Assembly (NCBI GenBank): GCA_003833135.1
Contig: QZLH01001215.1
Location: 8,207-29,708, forward strand
Direction of reading: 5' to 3'
Source: Oehlia diaphana
Lineage: Eukaryota; Glomeromycota; Glomeromycetes; Glomerales; Glomeraceae
Length of the DNA stretch: 21,502 nt
Shown piece by piece: positions 411 through 20,029 of this stretch (its first letter is position 1; every line of letters begins with the position of its first letter). The notes below the pieces were generated by a model, which was given only the letters and a program-made list of their open reading frames with translations, was not told where the DNA came from and did not search any database. The translations under genes were made by a program, and so were the position numbers.

Positions 411-2347
411 TCATAAGTGGCCAAGATTATGCACAGCTACCAAATGTCCATTATTTACAGCTTTTTCATACCAATAAGCAGCAAATTTTAAATCTTTTTT
501 AATACTTAGTCCATTTTCATAAAACCAACCTAATTTATATTGTCCCATTGCATAATCTTTATTAGCTACTTTTTTGTAATATTCGAATGCAAGTCTTTCA
601 TTATTTGCAACTCCATATTTGAATGCAAGTCTTTCATTTTTCGTAAATCCATATCCAAATTGATAACAAATCCCAACATAAAATTGTGCTAATGCATGGT
701 CATGTTTAGATGCATTATTAAATGAAGTAAATGCTTTTGTCTTAATCATATTTGTTCCAATTCCACAAAATTCTAAATAACCAAGTAAAAAAATGGAATT
801 TGCATTATTTTGATTACATAATAACCAATTATAGAATATTATTGAATCTATACTATGATTATTAATATAATCAAGAACATGCTGCATTGCCACACTTCCT
901 TTATTAGTCTCTTTATAAATGAGATCAACTATTTCATTAACTATTATGTTCAAATCATTCTTTGACATTATGTATATTTCATTTGTATTTGTACGATTGA
1001 AATTTTTAGCCAATTGAGATAATTCTCCATGTAATGAATTTCCCGTATTATTTGGAATTAAATTTGCACTTGGCATGGGATTAATTTGATTATCATTTTG
1101 TTGATAAATTGGATTTGGAATAAATTTTCTTAATCTATCAACAACTTCATTTATAGATGGTCGTTTATTTGGTTCTCCATTCCAACACTCTAATAATTAG
1201 TAATATATATTTAATTAAAATGATTAAAATACTAAAAAATAAAATAAATAATATAGTGAAAAATAACTTGCCAGTATAAAGATTAGAATAATCAATAGGA
1301 GTATCAGAAATAATTACTTCTCTTCGACCTTGTGAAATTTTATACATTAAACTAAAATCACAATTTTCTTTATGAAATGGCGATTTCCCACTTGATATTT
1401 CCCATAACAGTACACCAATACTGTATATATCACTCTTCTCATTTAATTTTAAATTATCCATTAATACTTTTGGATCAATATAGGGAACTTTACCAAATAA
1501 TTTTGATTTTGATTTAGATGCTTCATCAACCCTTTTTGATAGACCAAAGTCCGCCAACTTAATGGAATTTTGATGAACCAACACATTACAAGAATGCTAT
1601 TATAATGTACAAACAAAGTAAATTAACTTTTAGGAATAATCATCTTGTTTAATATTAAAAAAAAAAAAAATTACCAAGTCTCGGTGAACAATTCCCTCTT
1701 CGTGCAGACATAGTATAGAACAAGCTAATTGGTATGCTAATCTGTATTTATTTTCCCAAGTAAGACTATGGATGTTATTTTTCAAATAGTCACGAAGCGT
1801 ACCACCGTCAGCGTATTCCATTACCAACAAATAATTTTTTGTTGGATTAAATATATTTTCTAATAAAAATAATTAATATTAGTTATTGCACAAATAAAAT
1901 TATTTCATTCAACTTTGACTGTTATAATAGTAATTAAAATATTTTACCAGTTCTTGGCTCATATTTTGTAATTCCGTAAAAGCGAATAATATTATCATGG
2001 AAATCTACATCTCGTTGAAGTTTAATCTGATTTATGAACGACAATCAGTGAAAGAATAAAGAAAATATATAAAAGGAGTACACATAAATAAAACTCTTTT
2101 TTTTAAAAAAAATGTATCAAATATTTAATAATAATGAAATTACCTCATTAATAATTTCTTTCAAGGTAATGTTGTTAAGATCAAAAAAAAATTTTAACGC
2201 TAAATAATGATCAAAGCTCTTCCAATTTGCACGGAAAACCTTTCCGAATCCTCCGGAATCAATCTCTTGAATATTTTTAAAATTTTCAAATTCGTAATAT
2301 TTAATGTTTTTTATTGACAGCATCTTCAATCCAATTAATACATTCAT
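411..2347 (-). CDS. TKL-type protein kinase fused to Sel1 repeats, five exons
   Basis: Model: complement(join(411..1189,1272..1596,1675..1859,1948..2026,2144..2347)), 523 residues, all junctions in phase. Kinase motifs seen: glycine loop SGGFGKV (residues 31-37), Lys52 in ALKFF, HRDLHSCN (153-160), DFG (172-174) and a PYIDPK activation-segment end. A linker from about residue 300 leads to Sel1 repeats (about 385-523; for example LGYLEFCGIG and LGWFYENGL). Such kinase-Sel1 fusions are typical of the large kinase families of Rhizophagus; a signalling role with Sel1 as protein-binding scaffold is inferred. The exon 4/5 intron must use a GC donor (G|GCAAGT) to stay in frame. Oddities: an upstream minus-strand frame (2301-2477) encodes the usual family N-terminus but is offset by a 2-nt deficit near 2303, and the last Sel1 repeat breaks at 411-413. 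The start at 2347 is therefore a fallback; the gene may be decaying. Confidence 0.8.
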
Positions 2348-5173: not shown

Positions 5174-5464
5174 GTAAATACATTTTCGGCTACTTTGCAA
5201 ATCTATTTTAATAGAGTGGCAAAGGTAGTTTGAACATTTTTTCTATCAAAACCAACTAATAAATATATCTATAATCACCATATGCGCGATCATTTTCAGT
5301 TTTATCACATGATACTACTGTATGTATCATTGTAAGATAAAATATTCTCAAATTTTGTCAAACAAAACAAACTAACTAAATTAAACAAAATAAAATTTAT
5401 TCACTAAGTTTGAATATAAAACTGCGCCACACTATCAATAAATTGCTATGTATATCACGGCATT
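5174..5464. other. AT-rich host flank left of the large transposon
   Basis: No coding region or RNA gene recognised. This is the left pre-insertion flank of the 13.2-kb element; it ends in TATCACGGCATT directly before the target duplication. Confidence 0.5.
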
Positions 5465-5472
5465 ACACCAGG
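5465..5472. repeat. left target site duplication ACACCAGG
   Basis: ACACCAGG immediately precedes the left TIR and is repeated exactly at 18704-18711, directly after the right TIR. The 8-bp length fits what is generally reported for Zisupton/KDZ-type elements (from memory). Confidence 0.9.
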
Positions 5473-5681
5473 CACTCCATTCGGGTGATCATCAAAGGTT
5501 ATAACCTTACGATTTATGTCTCAGGTGCATAGGTTATAACCTCATATTAGCGGCACGTGACCCACTTTTTAATTTTGGCCCAATATGCGTAATTTTGGCA
5601 TGTTAATTTTGGAGCACGTAACATGCTATACAGATGTAACATGCGTTAATATCATCGCACGTTACTTTTATGTAACATGCG
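5473..5681 (+). repeat. left terminal inverted repeat, 209 bp
   Basis: It matches the reverse complement of 18486-18703 with one substitution (fourth base, T versus C) and lacks a 9-bp segment present on the right. It contains the perfect 10-bp palindrome GGTTATAACC twice (5497-5506 and 5532-5541, 35 bp apart) and a CACGTG. It runs into the first hairpin units of the subterminal array. The paired palindromes are plausible transposase or accessory-protein sites (inference). Confidence 0.92.
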
Positions 5682-6365
5682 TTAATATCAGCGCACGTTA
5701 CTTTGATGTAACATGCACACTTATAACATGCGTTAATGCTGGCGCATGTTACACAGACGTAATGCGCACTAATTCAGTCGCATGTTACCCATCTGTAACA
5801 TGCGCTAATTCAGACACATGTTGCTCAACTGTAACATGCGCTAACTCTGGCGCATGTTTCCAGAACGTAATATGCGCTAATTCAGACGCATGTTACTCTT
5901 CCGCTAACAGTTAATGCCTATACACATGTAACATGCGGCGCTAATTCAGACACATGTTGCTCAACTGTAACATGCGCTAACTTTGGCGCATGTTTCCTGA
6001 ACGTAATATGCGCTATTCAGACGCATGTTACTCTTCTGTTAACATTCGTTAACAGTGCATGTTACCTTCTGTAACATGCGATGATTTAGTCGCATGTTAC
6101 TCGCCCGTAACATGCGCTAATTCAATCACATGTTGCTCAACTGTAACATGCGCTAACTTTGGCGCATGTTTCCTGAACGTAATATGCGCTATTCAGACGC
6201 ATGTTACTCTTCTGTTAATTACCTTCCGTAACATGCGATGATTTAGTCGCATGTTACTCGCCCGTAACATGCGCTAATTCAGTCACATGTTGCTCAACCG
6301 TAACATGCGCTAACTCTGGCGCATGTTTCCCAAATGTAACATGCGCTAATTCAGACGCATGTTCT
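5612..6365. repeat. left subterminal hairpin array (36-bp units)
   Basis: Units of arm GTAACATGCG, 10-nt loop, arm CGCATGTTAC and about 6-nt spacer are repeated; loops are variants of CTAATTCAGA, CTAACTCTGG and TTAATATCAT. A higher-order block of several units (ending GACGCATGTTACTCTTC) recurs near 5800-5900, 5940-6035 and 6115-6215. Open frames across the array with repeating Cys-Tyr or Val-Thr-Cys patterns only reflect the 36-bp (12-codon) period and are not genes. Confidence 0.9.
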
Positions 6366-6496
6366 TGATCTTCTATAACTGCGACCTTAATATTATGTAA
6401 TATGTGTAACATAGTAACGACATATACATATAACCCCAAATGTAAGTGATTATTTTACAACTGGATTTTTTTTTTAAAAAAAAAACTTTAATAATA

Positions 6497-9400
6497 ATGA
6501 GTGAAAATACTCAACCTTCACATAAAAAACCTAAAGGTACTATTTTATTGAATAATATTTATAATTAAATTATGAATTAAGTTTAATAATTAGGTTTACT
6601 AATAAATTATAAACCATAGGTCCAGTTAAATATCATCCTCATTATGTGTCCAATAATAAGCTGCATGCGGGAAGAATGATAGTTAATAAATATGCTAAAG
6701 GCAAAGCAAAGTATGAGCATTATGAATCTAACAAATCTGATAATATTGATGAAAATGATGAATATATGGATATTGATGAGAATACAGAAGAATGGGATGA
6801 TTTTTATAATGCTTTTCATGATATTAAAAATAAGAAGCAAAAATATTATAATGAACAAATTTCTTTAATGGAAAACTGGCAATCAATTATTCCAATTATT
6901 TTTAATTCTATTATTGAAGGTCAAGGATTTTCTGAAACTTCATTTTGCATTAAATGCAAAAAAGAAGCAATTATAAAATGTTTGGATTGTGATCCAAATA
7001 TATACTTTTGCCATAATTGTAATATATTATTTCATGATGTAATTAATATATTTCACCAACGAATAACCAAAAATAGTCAAGATAATAGTTCTACAAAAAT
7101 TATTAGATTATCACAAATATGTTTAGGAGAGTGTAAACATGAAATTTTAAAAGTATTATGTGTAGATATAAAAGGTATTATTAAAATATTCCTATATACT
7201 ATTTCTATATATAAAATATTAATTATATATTTTTAAAATTTCAGGAAAATATAATATTGAAGTTCCCATTTGCAATGGATTAATCAAAAGTTTAATTTAT
7301 AATAAGTTATTCCCATCAACACCTATACGACCTAGTGTTGTATTTACATTTAACGTATTAGATCTGTATAAAGAGCTTTTATGTGAAGCTCAAGTACCAT
7401 ACTTAGCATTTTGTAGAGTTTTAGAAACGCTTCACATGAATAATCATATAACTAGAGTTTGTATTTTGTATATTATTATTTTTTAAAAATTAAAAAATAA
7501 CTAAATACTAATATTATTTATACTATATTGTTTAGAATATTTATTTTTCCTTTATTTCAGCATTCCAACAATATATTGGGATCAAATCAAAAATCAATGA
7601 TGAAATTTTAAAATTATATCAAGAAACAAAGCCTTTATTCACCTGTCCTGCTTGTCCTCAAGTAATTTTCACGAAAAAAATGTTTATTTTTTATTTATAT
7701 TATATTTTTCTAATTATAATTTTTTTAGCCTCAAGAAGATAATGCAAAGGTTATTATTGCACTCGATGGAAATTTTCAATTAAGACGATTAAAAAGTGCT
7801 GGTAATGATGTTGGTCATAGATTAATTACAGATAACTACATTAAAACCTTTGATGAATATCAAAATTGGCTTGCAGAACATTATGATTTGATTCAAATAT
7901 TTAATAAAGATAAGGTAATTAATTAATAAATTAATTTATTTTTTTGAATATATCTGACATATTTTAATTTTTTAATTTTATTAGAATAATATTACATCAT
8001 GTGAAAGTAATTTTAAAGCGGCAAACCAACTCAATTCTTATCACAAAAGCAATTTTTTAGATGATACTGGATTGTTTGGCTGTACTTGTCGACATGGAAT
8101 TCTCATAAAATTTATAAATCTTCGCAATATAGGTGAAAGGTAATTATTAATTAATAACTTTATAGTTTTAATAGAATATAATACTAATAAAATCTTTTTT
8201 TTTTAAAAATTTTTATGTTAGATATTCATTAGCAGAATGTTTAATAAGTGAATTAAATAAATTGTTCCCAAAAGATTCCCAATCCCTTACTATTCTTTAT
8301 GATATAGCATGTTCATTACATGCACATGTTATGAATAATAATAGTGCAATTAATTTTATTAAATCAAAATTAAATTGGGGTGTTTCAATTTTCCATGCAT
8401 ACGCGCATTCTGTGAAATGTCAACTAAAATACCATCTGCGAATTCAAGAAGGTATTGGCCTTACTGATGGAGAATCTTTAGAAAGAATTTGGTCATATCT
8501 TGGAAGATTTGTTTCAAACACAAAGCATATGCGTCCAGCACATCGATTAGATATTTTATCATTAGCAATTCAACATATTTCAAACCGAATGATAGCTAAT
8601 TTAGGTAATTTTATTTATATTTATAAATTATTTATTATATTTTTATTATATTAAATTAATATTTCTATTAAAATAGGAGGTATTTTACTTCATAGATTTA
8701 AACATGCTAAAAAGCTTGAGATAGAAGTTACAAATAAACTTTCAGACCTAGAAAAACAACACCATGTTACTGAAGAAATAATTAAAAATACCATTAAAAA
8801 GCAACAGGAAAATACTTATGGTAATTTTTTTAAAAAATAAGTTATTAAAATTATCATAATTATAATAATTAATTTTATAATTTAATTAATTTTCAAAAAA
8901 CACTTACAAAAGGATGAAATATATTTTGCTCATTTAATGGAATTACAAGAATTAAAGTAAGTATATAGATTTGTGAATTATAGAAAAATCATTTATTTGT
9001 ATTAATTTATTTTTATTTTTTGTAATAGTAATAAATTTACTAAATGTCAGACAGATAAAGAAAAAGAAGGAATAAGTAAAAAAATATCAAAACTTCTTAA
9101 TAAAATTAACCATTGTGAAGCTGAATTAAATATTCCAGGAGATGAAAGATGGGATCCTATGGATATAAAATATAAGCAATATCTGGATGCTTATTTACAT
9201 GATCAAATAGAAAATATAGTTGATAAAATGCAAATTTTGCGTAATGAATATTCATTTAAATCTGGTTATTTTTTTGATCATAATCATAAAGGTAATTAAT
9301 TTAATTAATTTATTTTAATTCATTTAAAATAATTATAATAATTATAATAATTTATTATTTTAAAGGTCATAAAAGCGCCACAAAAATTAAAAAATCAGTT

Positions 9401-9712
9401 GATGATATCGTTAAAAACATTAATAATCAATTGATACATTACGATAAAATAAAAGTATTATTACCAGATGAATTACAAAATTATCCAGATTCAACTCTTA
9501 AGGATGTGTTAGATCATAAATCAGACTTATGGAAAGCATTAGATTTAAATACTGAAGATAATCATGGAATATCCCGAATTATTTTATACAATGCAATTCA
9601 AAACTATAATAATTTGTGTAGATCTAAAGAAGAACAAATTTTAATTCCTCAAGAATTAATTCGGCTTTTAAATCATTGGACAATTATTAAAATATTAAAA
9701 TATAGAAAATAA
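6497..9712 (+). CDS. KDZ-family transposase with N-terminal zinc-binding cluster
   Basis: Exons: 6497-6536, 6620-7174, 7245-7460, 7561-7661, 7729-7914, 7985-8139, 8222-8604, 8677-8820, 8913-8956, 9029-9291, 9366-9712. The start ATG reads MSENTQPSHKKPKG and splices in phase. A Cys/His cluster (FCIKCKKEAIIKCLDC and on, about residues 122-155) matches the CxC-type zinc modules that precede KDZ transposases. The RNase H-like core has ALDGNFQLRRLKSAG (Asp about 317), CTCRHG (about 400), LYDIAC (Asp about 445) and DGESLERIW (Glu about 502), the conserved blocks of the family and a likely D-D-E triad. Its role would be to cut and join the element's ends in the nucleus. The exon 8/9 junction is off by one nucleotide with canonical GT-AG splicing, so the later helical part (residues after about 594) may be shifted or the intron non-canonical. 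A TAA at 9710-9712 ends this frame. Confidence 0.85.
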
Positions 9713-10119
9713 ATTAGATGAAATTAAAGATCAAAAAACTCTATTAATGGTATGTATATACTTGTAATATTTAAGTAATATAAATGTAATTAACTGATTT
9801 TATAATTTATTTTTAGAGTGGGTTTATGTTTAATCTTAAACATATACTTTTCAAAGTGAATAATATAATTGAAGATTGTAATTCAGTTATAAATCAAATC
9901 AATGTACAATCTAATCCAACAAATCCTTATCAGAGTGAAGACAAGTTATTAAATGAAGATATTTATTTATTTACTAATGAATTTGAAGAAGTTGAACTAT
10001 TACAAGGTGAATTAGATAATAACATTACAGAATTAGATATAATTGATAAGATTGATAATATTCAAGAATATAAATCAGATATAATTGATGAAATTTATTT
10101 ATCAAGTGACAATGAATAA
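9699..10119 (+). CDS. C-terminal exons of the transposase, out of frame with exon 11
   Basis: From 9699 a different frame reads IENKLDEIKDQKTLLM and splices at ATG|GTATGT (9749) to 9817, continuing SGFMFNLKHILFKVNN to a TAA at 10117-10119. The last 80 residues are strongly acidic (Glu/Asp-rich). The codon style and the good intron suggest it is the true end of the transposase, reached after a frameshift near 9690-9700 or by an intron I could not place. It has no features of an independent gene. Confidence 0.5.
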
Positions 10120-10428
10120 TGATATAGAATATAATTCTCAAAATAAAAGAATACCTATATATTACACTCCCAATAAAAATTGATGCAAACATTAAAAATA
10201 TCTAAAATACATGAAAAATTAAAATTAAAGTAATAAAAAAAAAAGGGTTTGATAATTTATCGCCACATCGCAAGTGTCTCGTGATAGATAAAATCACGTG
10301 AATTATACTAAATTTGATTGGCTAATTTTTCGAAGACACTTAAAAAATTGCACCAAAAAGCTTATCAAAAATTCCAGGCGAAAAGAAAGGTCAAAGAATC
10401 ATTACAAAAAAGAAAAGAGAAAGAATTA
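10120..10428. other. spacer between the transposase gene and the minisatellite
   Basis: AT-rich sequence with no clear gene. It contains TCTCGTGATAG and AAATCACGTGAA. A short Lys-rich frame starts at 10318 but runs straight into the tandem repeat and is unlikely to be a gene. It may be the left edge of the element that carries the repeat. Confidence 0.4.
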
Positions 10429-11800
10429 GTTAACGTCCATCAACGAAAACCAACGAAAAATAACGAAAGCTACAACACCCAGCATACCAGAAGTCCTCAA
10501 GATCGAAAAAAAACACCTACAAAAAAAGGAAAAAAGTTAGTTAACGTCCATCAACGAAAAATAACGAAAAGCTACAACACCCAGCATACCAGGAGTCCTC
10601 AAGATCGAAAATAAATGCCTACAAAAAAAGGAAAATAGTTAGTTAACGTCCATCAACGAAAAATAACAAAAAGCTACAACACCCAGCATACCAGGAGTCC
10701 TCAAGATCGAAAATAAATGCCTACAAAAAAAAAAAAAAAAAGTTAGAAAAAAACAAAAAAAAAAAAAAAAAAAAAGCTACAACACCCAGCATACCAGGAG
10801 TCCTCAAGATCGAAAATAAATGCCTACAAAAAAAAAAAAAAATAGTTAGTTAACATCCATCAACGAAAAATAATGAAAAGCTACAACACCCAGCATACCA
10901 GGAGTCATCAAGATCGAAAAAAATGCCTACAAAAAAAGGAAAATAGTTAGTTAACGTCCATTAATGAAAACTAACAAAAATCAACACCCCACGCCACCTA
11001 ATAAGTCCTCAAGATCGAAAGAAATACCTACAAAAAAAAAGAAAGAGTTAGTTAACGTCCATCAACTAAAACTAACTAAAATCAACACCCTCCACACCGA
11101 ACAACCTACCAGGAATCCTCAAGATCAAAAAGAACACCTACAAAAAAAAAGAAAAATTGTTACAGCGAAACTAACAAAAACTATAACACCCACACCGAGC
11201 AACCTACCAGGAGTCCTTAATATCGAAAGAAACAACTACAAAAAAAAGAAAAATGTTAGTTAACGTCAATTAACGAAAACTAACAAAAATCAACACCCAC
11301 GCCACCTAATAAGCTTACGAGAAGTCCTCAAGATCGAAAGAAACACCTACAAAAAAAAGAGAGAGTTAGTTAACGTCCATCAACTAAAACTAACTAAAAA
11401 CAACACCCTCCACACCGAAAAACCTACCAGGAGTCCTTAACATCGAAAGAAACAACTACAAAAAAAAAGAAAAATGTTAGTTAACGTCAATTAACGAAAA
11501 CTAACAAAAATCAACACCCCACGCCACCTAATAAGCTTACGAGAAGTCCTCAAGATCAAAAGAAATACCTACAAAAAAAAAGAAAGAGTTAGTTAACGTC
11601 CATCAACTAAAACTAACTAAAAACAACACCCTCCACACCGAACAACCTACCAGGAATCCTCAAGATCAAAAGAAACAACTACAAAAAAAAAGAAAAATGT
11701 TAGTTAACGTCAATTAACGAAAACTAACTAAATGCATCAACTCCAACCAAAGCTTACCAGGAGTGTCTAATGACGAAAAGAATACCCAAGGAGTTAATAA
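10429..11800. repeat. minisatellite, 101-112-bp unit, about 13 copies
   Basis: The landmark GTTAACGTCCAT (or variant) recurs at about 10429, 10540, 10642, 10849, 10950, 11051, 11259, 11369, 11480, 11592 and 11703. Each unit holds AACACCC, TACCAGGAGTCCTCAAGATCGAAA and a poly(A)-rich tract that varies in length. In the right half two unit types alternate, giving a 221-223-bp higher-order period (11259, 11480, 11703). Lys/Thr-rich open frames here are repeat translations without coding support. Confidence 0.88.
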
Positions 11801-11899
11801 GCATTAATTACTTCTAGGCTTCTTCCAGGACGGCAATTCGGCGGCTGTCAACGACAGTGATTTATTCATTAAATTATTGCGAACTGGAATATATATCTA
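11801..11899. other. short unique segment between minisatellite and Helitron
   Basis: It is richer in GC than its surroundings (TTCCAGGACGGCAATTCGGCGG). No frame or RNA motif is recognised. Confidence 0.35.
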
Positions 11900-12707
11900 T
11901 CTATATATAAAATATAAAATAAAAAAATTTCAGAGTTGTGACTCATTTGCGCCTGATCTATTCCGTGTTAATTTGTGTGTAACGTTGACGTGAAAATAAA
12001 TGGGGTGTGATGTCCGAGGTGTTGTGATAAATAGAGATCAGACCACAAAAAAAGTCCCCGAGATAAATATAAACAACGCGATCAAGTGACCATGTGACAT
12101 AAACATCACCTGTAAAACCCGAGGTTGTAACCGAGGGTAGTGTGGTAAGAATTTCCCATTTGACGTTTTACCAGAAAGGCATGATATGTTTCGTTAAATG
12201 TTACCGCATAAAACATTACATCCCTTCTGTAGGCTTACTGTAAAATATTTATTTATATAGAGGCGTGATGTTTTATGCAGTGTATCAAGATCGATACTTT
12301 TGCACCCAATTTTTCCTCGATTTTCATACAAATAATTTAGTATTTTCATATTTTCATAATATTAAAGTTTTTTCGAAAATACTTTTAAAAGTTAATCAAT
12401 TTTTATTGATAATTATTTTTTTACAATTCCTTAATTAATCTGGATTTCATTTTCATTCTACACTCAAATGTCAAATCATTAATATAAATAGCTACATTAT
12501 TGTAAATATAATTTATATCATTTTAATATTATAAATATAATTTAATACATATTATTTTATTAATTTTTGTTGACTAATTATTACCATATTAAATTCCTAA
12601 TTATAAACAAAAACTACTATAACCATCTTTAATTTACTTAATAATACTAAATTTTTCTATTTAAACAAACTCATTGGTCCCGGTGCGAAGCAACGGGTGA
12701 CTGCTAG
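11900..12707 (+). mobile_element. non-autonomous Helitron, about 0.8 kb
   Basis: The 3' end is characteristic: an imperfect 8-bp stem hairpin CCCGGTGCGAAGCAACGGG (12679-12697, GAA loop), six bases, then CTAG at 12704-12707 followed by T. The best 5' end is TCTATATATAAAATATAAAA at 11900 after an A; a second A|TC at 11896 is possible. Insertion between A and T without target duplication, 5' TC and 3' CTRR are the Helitron rules. No Rep/helicase coding region lies between. The 3' end is secure; the 5' end is inferred. Confidence 0.65.
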
Positions 12708-12755
12708 TTTTTTATAAAAAAAAAAAATTCGTAATAATTTCGGTTAAACGATATA

Positions 12756-12864
12756 GAGTATGATATATACCTCTGATGTTGTATAGTATAGTTGATGAAA
12801 ATCTATACAATACAGTATAGTTTTTTTACACTATACTATACAACATCGGAGGTATATCATACTC
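12756..12864. mobile_element. 109-bp palindromic MITE
   Basis: The left arm GAGTATGATATATACCTCTG (extending to about 12793) is the reverse complement of the right arm, which ends CGGAGGTATATCATACTC, with a 2-bp indel and one or two substitutions. The centre is about 35 bp. It would form a long hairpin. No certain target duplication is visible; TA-type flanks are possible. Non-coding. Confidence 0.65.
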
Positions 12865-12931
12865 AATAACTATATTATCTAATAATTTATGAATTTGTTT
12901 GATCAGCATTCAGTATTTTCCTATCACTGTA

Positions 12932-13093
12932 GCAAAAATATGAATCTTGACCCGTCACATGTATTAATCTTGACCCACTGCATGCACGTTGTCGATCACA
13001 TATATTTTACAATACACCATGAATAGGATCGACAACGTGCATGCAGGTGGGTCAAGTTTCACGTACGTGACGGGTCAAGATTCATATATTTGC
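12932..13093 (+). mobile_element. 162-bp MITE copy A with 9-bp target duplication
   Basis: The ends GCAAAAATATGAATCTTGAC and, reversed, GCAAATATATGAATCTTGAC are terminal inverted repeats. A second inner inverted repeat around TGCATGCACGTTGTCGATC makes most of the element fold back. Perfect 9-bp direct repeats ATCACTGTA flank it (12923-12931 and 13094-13102). A 9-bp duplication suggests a Mutator-like non-autonomous family. Confidence 0.85.
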
Positions 13094-13099
13094 ATCACT

Positions 13100-13121
13100 G
13101 TAACATGCGAATAACATGCGA
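13100..13121 (+). promoter_or_regulatory. array-type motifs upstream of the coiled-coil gene
   Basis: GTAACATGCG at 13100-13109 and ATAACATGCG at 13112-13121 sit between the two 162-bp MITEs; another GTAACATGCG is at 13311-13320. These are single arms of the subterminal hairpin unit, placed 460-680 bp before the second gene. A binding-site role is inferred only. Confidence 0.4.
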
Positions 13122-13140
13122 TAATCTTTCTGTCTAACTG

Positions 13141-13302
13141 GCAAATATATGAATCTTGACCCGTCACGTACGTGAAACTTGACCCACCTGCATGCACGTT
13201 GTCGATCCTATTCATGGTGTATTGTAAAATATATGTGATCGACAACGTGCATGCAGTGGGTCAAGATTAATACATGTGACGGGTCAAGATTCATATTTTT
13301 GC
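13141..13302 (-). mobile_element. 162-bp MITE copy A', inverted and identical to copy A
   Basis: By eye this is the exact reverse complement of 12932-13093. It has its own 9-bp target duplication GTCTAACTG (13132-13140 and 13303-13311), different from that of copy A, so the two are separate insertions rather than one palindromic duplication. A 47-bp spacer lies between the copies. Confidence 0.85.
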
Positions 13303-13320
13303 GTCTAACTGTAACATGCG

Positions 13321-13781
13321 AATAAAGGGTGTACGCCTCCTTTTTTTTCAATATAAATATTCCGTCTCCTCATCTCAACAAATCATCTATTTTTTTTGGT
13401 TGGTTTGTTATTTTTTTTTTTAATAATCCAATCATACACCGCCTATTTTTTTTTTTTTTTATATTATCTCGTCTCGTACACCACCTCTATTTTTTTTTTT
13501 ATAATAATCTAGTTTAGTACACCGTCTATTTTTTTTATATTATTTCGTCTCATACACCACCTCTATTTTTTTAATAAATAAATAAATGACCATTTTCCTT
13601 CTTTTATTTATTTAATTAATTATTAAAAGAAAAAATTAAATGTCCTTTGGTTCACTTTTTTCTTTTAAAATAAATAACTATCCATCACTTCTTTTTTTTA
13701 AAAAAAATAACTATAAATCCTCTCATTCCCTTATCAATCCTCTTGTACCTGTATTTTTTAAAATACTATTTTTTTTTATCA
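13321..13781. promoter_or_regulatory. pyrimidine-rich repeated leader upstream of the coiled-coil gene
   Basis: T-rich tracts alternate with TACACCRCCTCTATTTTTT and TCGTCTC pieces, recurring about every 35-43 bp (TACACC near 13434, 13477, 13518 and 13553). No gene fits; the open frame of Phe/Ile residues is a T-tract artefact. CT-rich tracts like this often precede fungal start sites, so it probably holds the promoter and 5' leader of the next gene. Confidence 0.45.
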
Positions 13782-14609
13782 ATGGCACTAAATAAACCTA
13801 TTAAGCAAGCATTTAGTACATTACAAAATCAAATTGATGAATCAGACTATGTTCTTATTACTAAAACAAAAATTATTTTTAAAAACAAAGTATATATAAA
13901 AGCGGATGGAATTTGGGTGGATGATGATAATACAGAACCTTCAGAAGTTCTTTCAGGTCTAGGTCTAGATAAAAAAGAAGAAATAAATTCAATTACAAAT
14001 GAAAATAGTGATTTAAAAAAAAAAATTGAGGAATTAAATTTAAAGATACTTCAATTGGAGGAAGGAGAAGAAGAGCAGGAAGAAGAGGAGGAGGAAGATT
14101 TTGTTCCAAAAAAGAAAGTATCTGGTAAGCCAGCAAGTCAAAATAAAGTCAAAACCGCAATAATTAAGTTTTTTAATGACAATAAAGCAGATGGAGATTT
14201 ACTTGAAAATTTTAGTGAATTTTCAGTAATCTTAGATAAAAATAAGCAAAATAGAATTGAAACATTAAAAAAAATATTTGATAGTATGAAAGGTGGAGCA
14301 AGTGAACGTGTTTATAAATCATTTATTGAGCTTGAAATTTTATATCAATTATATTTAAAAGAATTTGGAAGGAAGAAAGGAAGCAATCTTGCCAAAGACG
14401 AGTTAAACAATATAATTATCACGAAAAAAAAACCATCAATTTATTTTAAAAAAGCTAGTAATTTTTATTTTATATGTAAATATTTGAAAAAAGGAGGGTG
14501 GAAAAAATGTGATCTAGCTCCTACATATTGGGAATCAGTTACCGGCCAAACTTGGAGTAGCATTTTAAATAGTTTAAATTTAGAACAACAAAATGAAAAT
14601 TTATCTTAA
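13782..14609 (+). CDS. unrecognised acidic/coiled-coil protein of the transposon
   Basis: ATG at 13782 begins MALNKPIKQAFSTLQ, giving 275 residues; the in-frame TTG further upstream lies in T-rich leader. Residues about 70-105 form a heptad-like coiled coil followed by an almost pure Glu tract, then a basic KKK segment. The remaining 150 residues are helical-looking with basic patches (KEFGRKKGSN, KYLKKGGWKKCD). I recognise no family. The position between the transposase and the HMG gene, in the same orientation, suggests an accessory DNA- or protein-binding factor. A 32-bp tandem duplication (about 14576-14607 and 14608-14639) creates the stop at 14607-14609; without it the frame would splice into two more exons (to 14846), adding an acidic Glu/Gln-rich tail of about 20 residues. 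The truncated protein may still work. Confidence 0.7.
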   Translation: MALNKPIKQAFSTLQNQIDESDYVLITKTKIIFKNKVYIKADGIWVDDDNTEPSEVLSGLGLDKKEEINSITNENSDLKKKIEELNLKILQLEEGEEEQEEEEEEDFVPKKKVSGKPASQNKVKTAIIKFFNDNKADGDLLENFSEFSVILDKNKQNRIETLKKIFDSMKGGASERVYKSFIELEILYQLYLKEFGRKKGSNLAKDELNNIIITKKKPSIYFKKASNFYFICKYLKKGGWKKCDLAPTYWESVTGQTWSSILNSLNLEQQNENLS

Positions 14610-14846
14610 ATTTAGAACAACAAAATGAAAATTTATCTGAAGGTAAGGTTTTTAATTAATAAAAATTTATTAAAAGTGTGTTATTTTTAAATTAATTTTT
14701 TTTTCTTCTTTTTCAGATAATTCAGAGCAAGAGCAACAAGAGCAACCAAATGAAGAAATAGGTAAGGCTTTTAATAAATTTATAATAAAATGTTTTAATA
14801 GTGTGGGTTATTTTTAAATTAATTTTTTTTATATAATTCAGAATAA
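14608..14846 (+). pseudogene. stranded C-terminal exons of the coiled-coil gene
   Basis: The second copy of the 32-bp duplication ends at GAAG|GTAAGG (donor after 14641). The next exon 14718-14761 reads DNSEQEQQEQPNEEI, and a further intron leads to a TAA just after its acceptor (about 14842-14846). Both introns have good GT-AG borders, so these exons were the original tail and are now cut off by the duplication. Confidence 0.55.
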
Positions 14847-15232
14847 GACCCCCGGAATTAGAGTAATGGATTTTTTAATTAAATTTTTTTTTTTATTTTT
14901 TAAATAATTCTTATATTGTTTTTTAAGAAATTTAAATTTTTTATTAAAATTTTTTTGATATAAATCACTATAAAAATAAATTTAATTTTTGATATGATGC
15001 ACGTTCACATATGTAACATGCGTTAATGTTCCAATGCACAAATCACATGATCATGATATTAAAACCGCGTAATATTAATAAGATTAGAATTCGTTTCTGT
15101 TTCTCACGGTTATTTCAAATTATTGTTGTATCATTTTTACTATAACAAAATGCAAGTATTATAATTTTATTAAAAAGACTTAATAAATTTAAATATATAA
15201 TATCAAATATACTGCATAATATTGAAATTTAG
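14847..15232. promoter_or_regulatory. spacer and likely promoter of the HMG-box gene
   Basis: AT-rich, without a gene. One array-type motif GTAACATGCG stands alone at 15013-15022, followed by TTAATGTTCC as in a hairpin unit missing its second arm. TCACATGATCATGATA follows. The first exon of the HMG gene, with its start codon, should lie here but could not be placed with confidence. Confidence 0.4.
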
Positions 15233-16675
15233 GATTGAAGAATCTTATGATATTGAAAATGAAATAAGCAATGGTTTTGAAAATTCAGGTATTTAAAAAA
15301 TTTAATATTTCTAATTTTTATATAACAATTTTAATTTATTTAATTGAAAATATACTATAGAATTAACAAAAGAAGCTTTAGCTTTAATCGAAGAAATGAG
15401 ATTGAAGCATGAAGCTGAAATCCATTTTTTATCTGAACAACTCAAATTAGAGCCTGAATTTATAAAAGTAAAGATACTGTATATTTTACTATATAAAGAT
15501 ACTTTATTTACCATTATATTTATATTTAAAAGAATTTATTTATTTTTAAAATATTTAAAAGAATATCATGAAATATCAGAGAGAACCTGCACCACGAAAA
15601 AAAAGAAAAATCTCTGCATATAATGTATTCCAAAAGGATTGGTGGGAAAATAATAAAACTAAGGGTATTTAATTAAATAATTTCTATTGTAATTTAACTT
15701 ATCTAATTAATTTATTATTTATATTATTAAGATTACAACTTGTCTACAGCTGATATTCAAAAAGTTTGTGCCAGTGATTGGAAAAAATTAAACGAAAAAG
15801 ATCATCAATTTTATAAAGAAAAAGTAAAAGAAATTTCAGACAGTCAACAATTAAGTTCAATTAATTATATAGAAAATACGAAATCAAGAATGACTGTATT
15901 AAATAAAGGAATATCAGACATTAGAAAAATGGTAAGTATAGCCTAACCCTAACCTTAACCCTAACCCTAATTTAATTAGCAAGATATTTTCAACTAACTT
16001 TACTAACATTTATATTTCAAATTGAATAGTTTTGTTCATTACAAATTACTTGTGGCCAAGAATTTGTAACATTATCTGTATCAAACCGTAATGAATTAGG
16101 TAGTAGTTTTTTTGGAACAAATGCAGGTGAAGAATTTTACCGTAATACACCAAAATTTAAAGATTTTATCACTCCATTTAGAAGTCTATCCAACGTAAAA
16201 TACAATGGTATGTTGTATAAGTAAAAAAAATTTATATATATAAATATTTTTAATATTAAATACTATTCTATTTATTATAGAATATATAGGAATTTTTGCT
16301 AAACAATCATCAGAATCAAATAATAATTACGTTGATGAAAATAATATGGAAATAGATATTAATAAAGCTAACACAAAAGAAGTTCAAAATATGGTTAGAA
16401 AAGTATTGAAAAGCAAATTTGGTATGTTTATTGATTTAATGATTTATTATTTATTACTAATATGAAATTTAAATTTATTTTTATTTTATTTTATAGAAAG
16501 AGATGTCAAATGCACTCAAATACCATATAAAAATTGGCATATACAAAATAAGTATGCTGTTAAAAATTGGCCAGATAATATTACATTTCAAGATTATAGT
16601 AATATCAAAAATGAAAATAACAGAAAAAAAGTATTATTAGCTTTGAAAGATATAGAGTTTGTAAAGTTGGGCTGA
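15233..16675 (+). CDS. HMG-box protein encoded by the transposon, multi-exon
   Basis: Exons with phase-consistent GT-AG borders: 15233-15288, 15361-15467, 15580-15664, 15732-15931, 16030-16207, 16281-16421, 16497-16675 (stop TGA), at least 314 residues. The HMG box spans exons 3-4: basic lead PRKKRK, ISAYNVFQKDWWENN, then ADIQKVCASDWKKL and DHQFYKEKVKE, the pattern of a three-helix HMG domain. An acidic/helical N-terminal part (ELTKEALALIEEMRLKHEAEI) precedes it, and an unrecognised C-terminal part of about 180 residues follows (TCGQEFVTLSVSN, NWHIQNKYAVKNWP). HMG boxes bend DNA and favour cruciform or distorted DNA, so a role at the element's hairpin arrays is attractive (inference). The upstream start exon is not resolved; an in-frame ATG exists at 15396. 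Confidence 0.75.
15941..15971 (+). repeat. interstitial telomere-like tract (CCCTAA)n
   Basis: CCTAACCCTAACC, TTAACCCTAACC and CTAA follow directly after the donor of the HMG gene's fourth intron (GTAAGTATAG, 15932 on). It is about five copies of CCCTAA with one variant, the complement of the common fungal telomere repeat TTAGGG. It lies wholly in the intron. Confidence 0.8.
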
Positions 16676-16852
16676 AATAACCATCTGGCTAGGGAAGCAG
16701 GGTCACGAAAGGTTCAGAGTACCATTGCACGGAAAGCCATTAGCACCCATCTAAGGTGACTAAATTTCAATGTATTTCTGTTTTTATCATGTAATATGTT
16801 TTTTTTTCACATTTACGAATAAAGAAATGCATTTATCTAAAAAAAAAAAAAT
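16676..16852 (+). other. 3' UTR or possible poly(A)-tailed retroposed segment
   Basis: After the HMG stop, about 85 bp (16681-16765) are much richer in GC than anything nearby (CATCTGGCTAGGGAAGCAGG, GGTTCAGAGTACC). T-rich sequence with AATAAAG (16818) and a run of A (about 16841-16851) follows. Either this is the HMG gene's 3' UTR with polyadenylation signal and chance A-run, or a SINE-like or processed-RNA insertion. The GGTTCAGAGTACC piece only loosely recalls a pol III B box, and no target duplication was found. Confidence 0.4.
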
Positions 16853-16959
16853 AATAATGAAATTTAATCATTTGTTTCAATAAATTTTATAAAATTTTCG
16901 ATTTTATTATTTTACATTCATATTCATGTTACAAGCATTTTCATTAAGTGCCAGTATAA

Positions 16960-18485
16960 CAGATAATATGCATGCGTAAGAATTGATGCATGTTACTTCA
17001 CATTCACTCAGAAATAACATCCTGGCATCTGCCCCACTCGCTCAATTGCTCAGAACTTACTTTTATTCCGCTTAATATCATGTTACCCAAACATAACATG
17101 CGCTAATTTGGATGCGCGTTACCCGAACGTAAGCATTTTATTCGGGTAACATGCGCCCGAGTTACCGCGTGCTACGGATGGTAATGCGCATCTGAATTAT
17201 CGCATGTTACAGATGGGTAACATGCGCGCGTTTTCTGACGTAACATGCGTTAATGCTGGCGCATGTTACCCAAATAAAATGTATAAATATTATTTCCAGT
17301 ATAACATGCGTCTGTAATCACCGCATGTTACGACGAATTAGTAACATGCGTACGAATCACCGCATGTTACGAACGAGTAACATGCGTCTGAATCACCGCA
17401 TGTTACATGAGAGTAACATGCGTCAGAACCGCCGCATGTTACGAATGAATAACATGCGCCCAAATTATCGCATGTTACGACACGTAACATGCGCCCGAAG
17501 TTTATGCATGTTACGAGTTTATGCATGTTACAGAAGAGTAACATGCGTCTGAATTAGCGCATGTTACAAAAATAACGAAATAGTAACATGCGTCTGTAAT
17601 TACCGCATGTTACGGCAGAGTAACATGTGCCTGAGTTACCGCATATTACAGAAGAAAGGGTAACATGCGTCTGACTCACCGCATGTTACGGAAGAGTAAC
17701 ATGTGCCCAATTTACCACATGTTACATTCGGAAAACATGCGCCAAAATTATCGCATGTTACGGTCACGTAACATGCGCCAGAGTTGACGCATGTTACAGA
17801 AGAGTAACATGCGTCTGAATCACCGCATGTTACGGAAGGTAACATGCGCCCAAGTTACCGCATGTTACGGCAGAGTAACATGCGCCAGCATTAACGCATG
17901 TCATGGATGAGTAACATGCGCCCAAGTTACCGCATGTTACGGCAGAGTAACATGCGCCCAAGTTACCGCATGTTACGGGAGAGTAACATGCGCCCAAGTT
18001 ACCGCATGTTACGGGAGAGTAACATGCGTCTACATCACCGCATGTTACGGAAGGTAACATGCACAGTATGGGTTTGAGTAATATATGCCCGCATGTTACA
18101 GATAAGTAGTAATATGCGCCTGAGTTACCGCATGTTACGGACGAGTAAGAGTTACCGCATATTATACATTTTGTTTGTGTAACATGCGCCAGCATTAACG
18201 CATGTTACGGTCGGAAAACGCATCGCATGTTACGGAGGAGTAACATGCGCTAATTCAGACGCATGTTACTCCTCCGTAACATGCACAGGCATTAACGTAT
18301 GTTATTTTCTGAATAATGCGAATTAATTTTATGCCAGTGAATGTGAAGTAATATGCGTTAATACCCACGCATGCTATCCAGATGTAAAATCTATATGATA
18401 CTGGAAATAACATAATTATAAACACGCGACAGCATTAACGCATATTACGGATGGGTTATGGAAGGGTAACATGCGTCCGAATTAG
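16960..18485. repeat. right subterminal hairpin array (36-bp units)
   Basis: It starts with degenerate units (16960-17150), becomes regular from about 17150 and runs into the right TIR. Each unit is GTAACATGCG, a 10-nt loop (TCTGAATCAC, CCCAAGTTAC or CCAGCATTAA types), CGCATGTTAC and a 6-nt spacer such as GGCAGA, GGGAGA or GAACGA. It is about twice the length of the left array and has a different set of loops. Cys-Tyr-rich frames on the minus strand are periodic artefacts. Confidence 0.92.
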
Positions 18486-18703
18486 CGCATGTTACATAAA
18501 AGTAACGTGCGATGATATTAACGCATGTTACATCTGTATAGCATGTTACGATTGTTACGTGCTCCAAAATTAACATGCCAAAATTACGCATATTGGGCCA
18601 AAATTAAAAAGTGGGTCACGTGCCGCTAATATGAGGTTATAACCTATGCACCTGAGACATAAATCGTAAGGTTATAACCTTTGATGATCACCCGAATGGG
18701 GTG
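18486..18703 (-). repeat. right terminal inverted repeat, 218 bp
   Basis: Reverse complement of 5473-5681 with a single substitution near the tip and an extra 9 bp around 18548-18556, where GTTAC is doubled (GTTACGATTGTTACGTG). It contains GGTTATAACC twice and CACGTG, as on the left. Confidence 0.92.
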
Positions 18704-18711
18704 ACACCAGG
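18704..18711. repeat. right target site duplication ACACCAGG
   Basis: Exact copy of 5465-5472, abutting the right TIR tip GGGGTG. The flank continues CGATTCAGAGCC, so the empty site would read GGCATTACACCAGGCGATTC. Confidence 0.9.
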
Positions 18712-18853
18712 CGATTCAGAGCCGATTTTGGACTTTGTACAGCAATATGTAGTATTACACAAACAATTATAAATTAAAGTGCAACCTTTTTTTCCTAAAT
18801 ATATCATTAACTTTTCTGACTATAACAAACGACTATAACCAATATATGATAAT

Positions 18854-20029
18854 ATGGATTCACAAAATAGCAACTTCTCGTTAAACACGAATATTATAAA
18901 TTATGATACCACCATATTTTTTAATCATCTTAAAACATTATTAAAAGAATTATATATTATTTTATCAAATATGGAAAATATAGAATATGAGGTAGATGAA
19001 ATAAAAGAATTTATAAATAATTTTTTATTTGAATATGATTTGGATCCTAAAGATGTGTTCAAAATTATAACAAGTAATTCTAAAAATATTTTTTGTTATT
19101 CAAGTTTAATTGGATTTTTTTATCAATATGGAATTGGATGTGAAATTGATAAAATTAAAGCATCTGAAATATATTTTAATGTTTTAAAAAAAAATCAAAA
19201 AGAAACATTAAACCAAATCATTTTTAATGAAAAAAATGAAACCATTATTTTCTGTAATGATGATATTAAAGAGTTAAATGAAATAATTATAAAATATTTA
19301 TATTCTTTACTCCTTTATGAAAATATTATTTTGGATAAACAAAATAATTATAAATTTTGCATTAAAAGTGCTGAAGATGGTGATTCAGCATCACAATATT
19401 ACATAGGAAATTGGTATAACATCAAAAAAGATTATAATAAAGCGATTGAATGGTATTTAAAATCATCAGAAGGAGGAAATATTAAAGCAATGTATATACT
19501 AGGCTGTTGTTATGAGTATGAATATGGAGTTATGAAAGATGAGAAGAAAGCATTTGAATTATATTTAAAATCTGCTGAAGGAGGATATAAGCATGCACTA
19601 AGTGAATTGGGAGGTTGTTATTATCATGGAAATTGTGGTACCTTTAAAGACAAAAATAAAGCTTTTGAATTTTATTTAAAAGCAGCAGAAAAAGGACATG
19701 TTTCTAGTCAATATTTGGTAGCAAATTATTATTTTAATGGAAAATATATTCCAAAAAGTGAAGAAAAATGGTTTTATTGGAATAGAAAAGCTGCAATTAA
19801 TGGTATTACTGATGCTCAACTTGAATTAGCGGAATATTATATTAACCATTCTCTTGATAAGAATGAAAGTAAAGCATTCAAGTGGTATATGAAATTAGCT
19901 AATGAAAATATATTAAAGGCAATTCAAATGGTTGCAAAATGTTATAGGTGTGGTATTGGAACCGATAAAAATTCTTTGGAAGCTTTTAATTGGTTACATA
20001 AATGTATAAATTATAAAAGTTCTATGTAA
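18854..20029 (+). CDS. Sel1-repeat protein, single exon
   Basis: An intact 391-residue frame from ATG at 18854 (MDSQNSNFSLNTNI) to TAA at 20027-20029. A helical N-terminal part (about residues 20-75) leads to Sel1-like repeats over about 80-385, with the usual A-x-x-x-LG-x-x-Y-x-x-G and KAFEWYLKAAE patterns: LIGFFYQYGIG, QYYIGNWYN, MYILGCCYEYEYG, LSELGGCYYHGN, QYLVANYYFNG, QLELAEYYI and IQMVAKCYRCGIG. Sel1 repeats form alpha-alpha solenoids that bind proteins. There is no kinase domain, signal peptide or membrane segment. It resembles the Sel1-only members of the lineage's expanded family. It lies 142 bp outside the large transposon and is unbroken, unlike the kinase-Sel1 gene at the window's other end. 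Confidence 0.88.
   Translation: MDSQNSNFSLNTNIINYDTTIFFNHLKTLLKELYIILSNMENIEYEVDEIKEFINNFLFEYDLDPKDVFKIITSNSKNIFCYSSLIGFFYQYGIGCEIDKIKASEIYFNVLKKNQKETLNQIIFNEKNETIIFCNDDIKELNEIIIKYLYSLLLYENIILDKQNNYKFCIKSAEDGDSASQYYIGNWYNIKKDYNKAIEWYLKSSEGGNIKAMYILGCCYEYEYGVMKDEKKAFELYLKSAEGGYKHALSELGGCYYHGNCGTFKDKNKAFEFYLKAAEKGHVSSQYLVANYYFNGKYIPKSEEKWFYWNRKAAINGITDAQLELAEYYINHSLDKNESKAFKWYMKLANENILKAIQMVAKCYRCGIGTDKNSLEAFNWLHKCINYKSSM

Follow-up and report, generated by a model that had tools for sequence, protein, structure and literature searches.

A KDZ transposon of Oehlia diaphana with HMG-box/GTF2I-like and coiled-coil genes and palindromic subterminal arrays

The window analysed here is a stretch of 21,502 nucleotides from the glomeromycete Oehlia diaphana (positions 8207-29708 of contig QZLH01001215.1 in the gapped assembly GCA_003833135.1, which comprises 108.8 Mb in 1672 contigs), and it holds a 13.2-kb transposon of the KDZ (Kyakuja-Dileera-Zisupton) type at window positions 5465-18711. 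Three genes lie on its + strand and encode a KDZ transposase (6497-10119), a coiled-coil protein (13782-14609) and an HMG-box protein with a predicted GTF2I-like domain (15150-16675). The left terminal inverted repeat (TIR; 5473-5686, + strand), which begins with CACTCCATTCGGGTGATCATC, pairs with the right one (18481-18703, - strand) over 214/223 bp; the two differ by two substitutions and a single 9-bp indel. The 8-bp sequence ACACCAGG is perfectly duplicated at the outer edges, at 5465-5472 on the left and 18704-18711 on the right. A preliminary description of this DNA had recognized a KDZ-type transposon with TIRs and a perfect 8-bp duplication, which the Pfam assignment and the aligned ends bear out; its TIRs of 209/218 bp with one substitution and one 9-bp indel describe the outer part of the full alignment.

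The transposase gene has exons 1-7 at 6497-6536, 6620-7174, 7245-7456, 7536-7661, 7729-7914, 7985-8139 and 8222-8604, and exons 8-13 at 8677-8820, ~8890-8956, 9029-9291, 9366-~9694, ~9699-9749 and 9817-10119. In a Pfam scan of the three described gene products, the KDZ domain PF18758 scored 174.1 bits in the transposase (cut-off 26.6, E 4e-51); the cysteine cluster N-terminal to this domain was recognized as CxC2 (30.9 bits, cut-off 27), and the CxC1 score of 22.1 fell under its cut-off of 26.9. The stretches LDGNF, LYDIAC and TDGESLERIW, which may hold the catalytic acidic residues, recur in the relatives P0011, P0012 and P0013, the first of them as LDGNF or FDGNF. Among 23 transposase relatives the nearest is P0011 of Rhizophagus irregularis, to which the exon pieces are 95-100% identical, with the exception of one long stretch of 76.5% that crosses introns.

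With the exon edges of the relatives, exons 1-8 read through 600 residues without a stop. At the exon near 8890 the AG acceptor is lost in this copy, where P0011 and P0013 read on, and a 4-nucleotide length change near 9694-9698 shifts the frame, where P0011, P0012 and P0013 read on, leaving the final part of the transposase (116 residues in P0011) out of frame. All three of these relatives are predicted genes in which some part of what the window has is missing, so that no single one serves as a whole reference; the lesions themselves may come from sequencing or assembly error. Judged by these relatives the transposase is damaged, and this copy is probably no longer autonomous; in structure the element is whole. 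The element had been called complete in the preliminary description, a term that does not suit a transposase with a lost acceptor and a frame shift and a 13.2-kb stretch in which younger repeats are nested.

The HMG-box/GTF2I-like gene, by comparison, is intact. Its eight exons (15150-15151, 15233-15288, 15361-15467, 15562-15664, 15732-15931, 16030-16207, 16281-16421 and 16497-16675, + strand) encode 321 amino acids, and the spliced product is identical to P0007 and, letter for letter, to the Rhizophagus diaphanus protein C1646_818068. The first intron (15150-15232 region) has GC-AG borders and splits the ATG start codon, in agreement with the R. diaphanus protein record. The HMG box exceeds the Pfam cut-off as HMG_box_2 (4.7e-10) and HMG_box (9.3e-6), and the C-terminal domain, previously unremarked, is predicted to adopt a GTF2I-like, DNA-binding fold. 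Relatives of the protein occur in other species at 64-70% identity. Four introns are shared with a host paralogue, so the gene was likely captured from the host. An intron of this gene also contains about five copies of the telomere-like repeat CCTAAC (window 15942-15970).

The coiled-coil gene (+ strand) encodes 275 amino acids in one exon; the three genes had earlier been described as same-strand and multi-exon, and this one departs from the second part of that description. The protein matches no Pfam family above cut-off, and its structure prediction gave a mean pLDDT (predicted local distance difference test) of 45 with no usable fold. Its relatives show identities of 95, 55, 55 and 56% (source jgi), 91% (source lgn) and 32% (R. 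diaphanus); those at 55-95% are 241-291 amino acids long. A 32-bp tandem duplication (14574-14638, + strand) bears the stop of the gene and closes its frame where the relatives P0002-P0005 continue for some residues of tail.

Both ends of the element carry subterminal arrays of 36-bp palindromic units of the form TAACATGCG-N-CGCATGTTAC. The left array (5633-6370) contains 21 TAACATGCG half-sites, the first inside the TIR, and the right array (17081-18540) contains 49. The remaining four of the 74 half-sites in the window are interior, and none lies outside the element: two (starts 13101 and 13112, spanning 13101-13120) and a third (13312-13320) precede the coiled-coil gene, and the fourth (15014-15022) lies shortly upstream of the start of the HMG gene at 15150, all on the + strand. 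Dinucleotide shuffles of the interior gave a mean of 0.026 half-sites, and 0 of 1000 shuffles reached the four observed. All 41 exact TAACATGCG-N5..12-CGCATGTTAC palindromes matched in the assembly (both strands counted) fall inside this element, as against 0 matches for a reversed-sequence control, and 137 kb of other loci, with overlapping loci counted repeatedly, contain six TAACATGCG half-sites, all of them in L003 and L012, two loci that bear TIRs. CpG reaches 64 and 74 per kb in the arrays versus 14.5 in the interior; as a thought, this richness would matter if methylation acts on the arrays.

The transposon landed at the edge of a high-copy repeat, whose end (...CACGGCATTACACCA) occupies window positions 5389-5470 and includes the first six bases of the left duplication. 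The two flanks were joined into the empty-site form of the insertion point (...GGCATTACACCAGGCGATTC), and the 40 of 64 candidates that were scored comprise the window's own two flanks plus 38 further places; there the alignments end at query positions 79-88, around the junction at 84. In the four of these places that were read (L074-L077), the repeat stops at most two bases from ...GGCATTACACCA and different sequence follows. Since the repeat ends in the left flank and the 8-bp duplication runs across its edge, the right-hand ACACCA is explicable only by target duplication. The flanks speak strongly for a single insertion of the whole 13.2 kb, and we regard a KDZ element inserted once as close to certain.

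The ends have also moved elsewhere. The left end (218 bp) gave 33 matches in the assembly, of which two are the window's own, three had no locus and 28 make up loci L003-L030. Both ends were looked for in 25 of these loci, L018, L019 and L030 being second views of L004, L006 and L005. A duplication was scored when 8 bp agreed with no more than one mismatch after a slip of the ends by up to 2 nucleotides, a rule that 2.6% of random pairs with the same slip satisfy. Such a duplication accompanies eight of the ten two-ended loci, three of them perfectly, and is missing at C873 and C767. A 4.1-kb copy on C168, covered by two loci, has the perfect duplication TTGAAACA; the copy on C100 has none and contains a second, related pair of ends. 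Taken together, both ends are resolved in 12 other copies, of which nine show the 8-bp duplication (at most one mismatch) and seven are 93-bp foldbacks, the shorter TIR copies ranging from 93 bp to 4.1 kb. Ends like these have thus moved, making 8-bp duplications. At C100 (L013/L021), the related element with variant ends lies inside a copy of the 93-bp type, and the bases beside its two ends agree at seven of eight positions.

The interior also contains repeats. Between the transposase and coiled-coil genes lies a tandem array of 102-111-bp units (10451-11741), followed by a nested dispersed repeat (12323-12709) that is likely a Helitron 3' end; among the 19 matches listed elsewhere, 12 stop within window 12706-12713. 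We take its terminus to be Helitron-like from the motif of a hairpin and CTAGT. A 162-bp dispersed repeat is nested as two inverted copies (12932-13093 and 13141-13302; together 12932-13302) and occurs on at least 21 other contigs at 89-100% identity among the best 40 of 252 candidates, with one copy also within an 856-bp TIR copy on C42; it resembles a miniature element that was active not long ago. Younger nested repeats make up some of the 13.2 kb. An Rfam search gave no match. Outside the element, Sel1-repeat and protein-kinase open reading frames (ORFs) lie on either side (window 411-1596 and 18839-20029).

In our interpretation, this is a KDZ transposon with a likely captured host HMG-box/GTF2I-like gene and a coiled-coil gene, both of which would work with the transposase on private palindromes, and we give this reading a probability of roughly 60%. 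The preliminary description had placed both genes inside the KDZ element as parts of it, and the shared ends, the element-private half-sites upstream and the occurrence in other records of proteins related to both agree with that placement; we consider it very probable that the two genes belong to the element. That their products act in its movement or control, or are accessory factors of a three-gene transposition system as the preliminary description inferred, is a more tentative proposal, on which we would not insist. Mechanistically, the transposase would cut at the CACYCC...GGRGTG ends, and an element-encoded protein, either the HMG-GTF2I protein or the transposase through its zinc cluster, would bind the TAACATGCG palindromes as a dimer and would bend or join the two element ends. 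Copies of TAACATGCG near the gene starts would let the bound protein tune the element's own genes, for which TnpA of En/Spm, acting on the subterminal sites of its element, provides a model. The furthest-reaching version, in which a captured HMG-GTF2I factor and a coiled-coil partner read a TAACATGCG code in the ends and before the genes, link synapsis of the ends with gene control and have spread with the transposase through Glomeraceae as a self-regulating three-protein unit, strikes us as unlikely in its entirety.

Two observations weigh against the preferred interpretation. The three half-sites before the coiled-coil gene flank the two inserted 162-bp repeats, and their independence may be doubtful. 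In addition, a search of the gapped assembly with the three proteins brought up no other copy that unites all three genes, a result that is a lower bound given a six-frame, exon-by-exon search and the gaps of the assembly. Elsewhere in the assembly each of the proteins matches only relics or distant paralogues. For the transposase these are one exon-sized relic at C663 and one relic of 25 residues at C970, and both matches of an assembly search with PF18758 (two candidates scored) are at this locus. For the HMG-GTF2I gene there are relatives at C295, C611 and C17, and a weak match to the HMG part at C241 (E 0.003). For the coiled-coil protein there are a broken relative at C954, which R. diaphanus P0006 matches only partially, in pieces of 42-100%, and a distant relative with an open 266-residue frame and two partial copies at C1224 (L033). 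In other organisms, no relatives were found for the queries A2 and A1 in viral contigs or for A2 in genome contigs. The preliminary description had proposed a search for further full copies with duplications of their own; within this assembly no such three-gene copy appeared, and the other TIR copies do have their own 8-bp duplications.

The two genes could instead be passive passengers, host genes taken up by chance through transduplication, with no role in movement and bound to decay. Several features would fit this: the introns of the HMG gene resemble those of the host paralogue, the transposase of this copy is damaged, and the 32-bp duplication shortens the coiled-coil frame. Furthermore, the other TIR loci, each of about 3 kb and some of them gapped, gave no blast match to any of the three proteins, nor was a relative found in the 6.9 kb that were read of an element at C1527, which has three half-sites and showed no second end in that stretch and no Pfam match in four ORFs. 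The shorter TIR copies and the C1527 element do enclose unrelated content, which the preliminary description had seen as a sign against a three-gene system; this is usual for non-autonomous derivatives. Chance uptake is at odds, however, with an intact HMG gene whose relatives in other species are conserved at the level given above, with coiled-coil relatives of similar length at 55-95%, and with element-private half-sites upstream of both genes, and we regard it as unlikely, at perhaps one chance in a few.

A nested or composite origin, in which the coiled-coil and HMG genes arrived with a different mobile element that inserted into this one, seems improbable. Further repeats do sit nested here, and the coiled-coil relatives at C954 and C1224 show none of these ends or half-sites in the stretches examined, the one at C954 lying beside a different, 35-bp tandem array (L080 5945-6295) that resembles the subterminal array of another element. 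Against this, 137 inverted pairs lie in 10130-17080, and once the nested repeats of 162 bp and a pair of 37 bp (12765-12857) are set aside, the 25 longest are only A/T-rich pairs of 71-84%, which leaves no clear second pair of ends, and a half-site of the KDZ element itself precedes each of the two genes; an inserted element whose ends lack inverted repeats may still account for them. That the TIRs merely flank resident host genes, by chance or through two separate insertions, is most improbable: HMG-GTF2I relatives do lie at loci without these ends (C295, C611 and C17), but the perfect common 8-bp duplication and the near-identical 214/223-bp ends mark one insertion, and palindromic arrays occur only at these two ends. 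The two genes are not confined to non-transposon loci, a confinement that would have told against the preliminary description; relatives lie outside such ends, and this pair lies inside.

Among known elements, the transposon favoured here most closely resembles KDZ1, KDZ2 and KDZ3 of Cryptococcus neoformans, which are about 9.2-11 kb long, have TIRs of 139-241 bp and, according to the available part of that report, have been shown to move (PMC12810828). KDZ1 is about 11 kb with 241-bp TIRs and an 8-bp duplication, and the duplications are 8 bp in general and 4-8 bp for KDZ2 and KDZ3; size, TIRs, 8-bp duplication and a KDZ transposase with a CxC domain are thus common to these and the present element (PMC12810828). 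They differ in that the Cryptococcus elements have CxC1 and this one CxC2, and in that, in the portion available to us, the transposase is the only gene named and the term HMG is absent from the main text (PMC12810828), whereas HMG and coiled-coil genes are present here. Zisupton and Dileera likewise combine a KDZ transposase with an 8-bp target duplication (PMC12730594, as far as its accessible text goes); by traits rather than by tree, the window and nine of the 12 other copies, with 8-bp duplications and TIRs, resemble these, and this element is set apart by its HMG-GTF2I and coiled-coil genes and its 36-bp palindromic arrays. Kyakuja is described in the same partial source with 7-bp duplications and CA..TG ends without TIRs (PMC12730594), unlike the 8-bp duplication and long TIRs found here. 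KDZ elements of Dikarya carry TET/JBP genes, whose role is without experimental test and is thought to counter silencing; these too hold a gene for a DNA-acting protein (PMC12730594, available text), with other cargo and not in a glomeromycete host. GTF2IRD2 also brings a GTF2I-type domain together with a transposon, there as a fusion with a hAT transposase (PMC10641963, in the part seen) and here as an HMG-GTF2I protein with a gene of its own within a KDZ element.

A further parallel in outline is offered by the CACTA element En/Spm, in which subterminal sites are repeated in both orientations and a second element protein, TnpA, is present; its transposase is unrelated, its duplication is 3 bp, and the palindrome binder of the present element is only putative. 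The founding papers on Zisupton and KDZ are reportedly those of Bohne 2012 and Iyer 2014. The titles and abstract openings of the open-licence papers listed name no HMG or coiled-coil gene in a KDZ element; the sole mention of KDZ in the accessible text of a curated R. irregularis repeat study that used a KDZ profile describes no such element (PMC11075540), and the words KDZ, Kyakuja, Zisupton and HMG are absent from the main text of PMC8647823. The preliminary description knew of no element with this gene set and architecture, which holds for the cargo and less so for the frame, to which KDZ1 of Cryptococcus comes close. As KDZ1-3 share the build and TET/JBP genes are accessory genes in KDZ elements, the kind is known, and what is new, as far as the open-licence literature shows, is the cargo gene set.

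A KDZ element that combines an HMG-GTF2I regulator with private arrays resembling binding sites, in a glomeromycete, offers a testable case of a transposon using a host DNA-binding protein. The host is a root-symbiotic fungus from a group whose repeats are mostly unclassified, and of the HMG genes that have been tallied among the host regulators of arbuscular mycorrhizal fungi, some may belong to the cargo of transposons.
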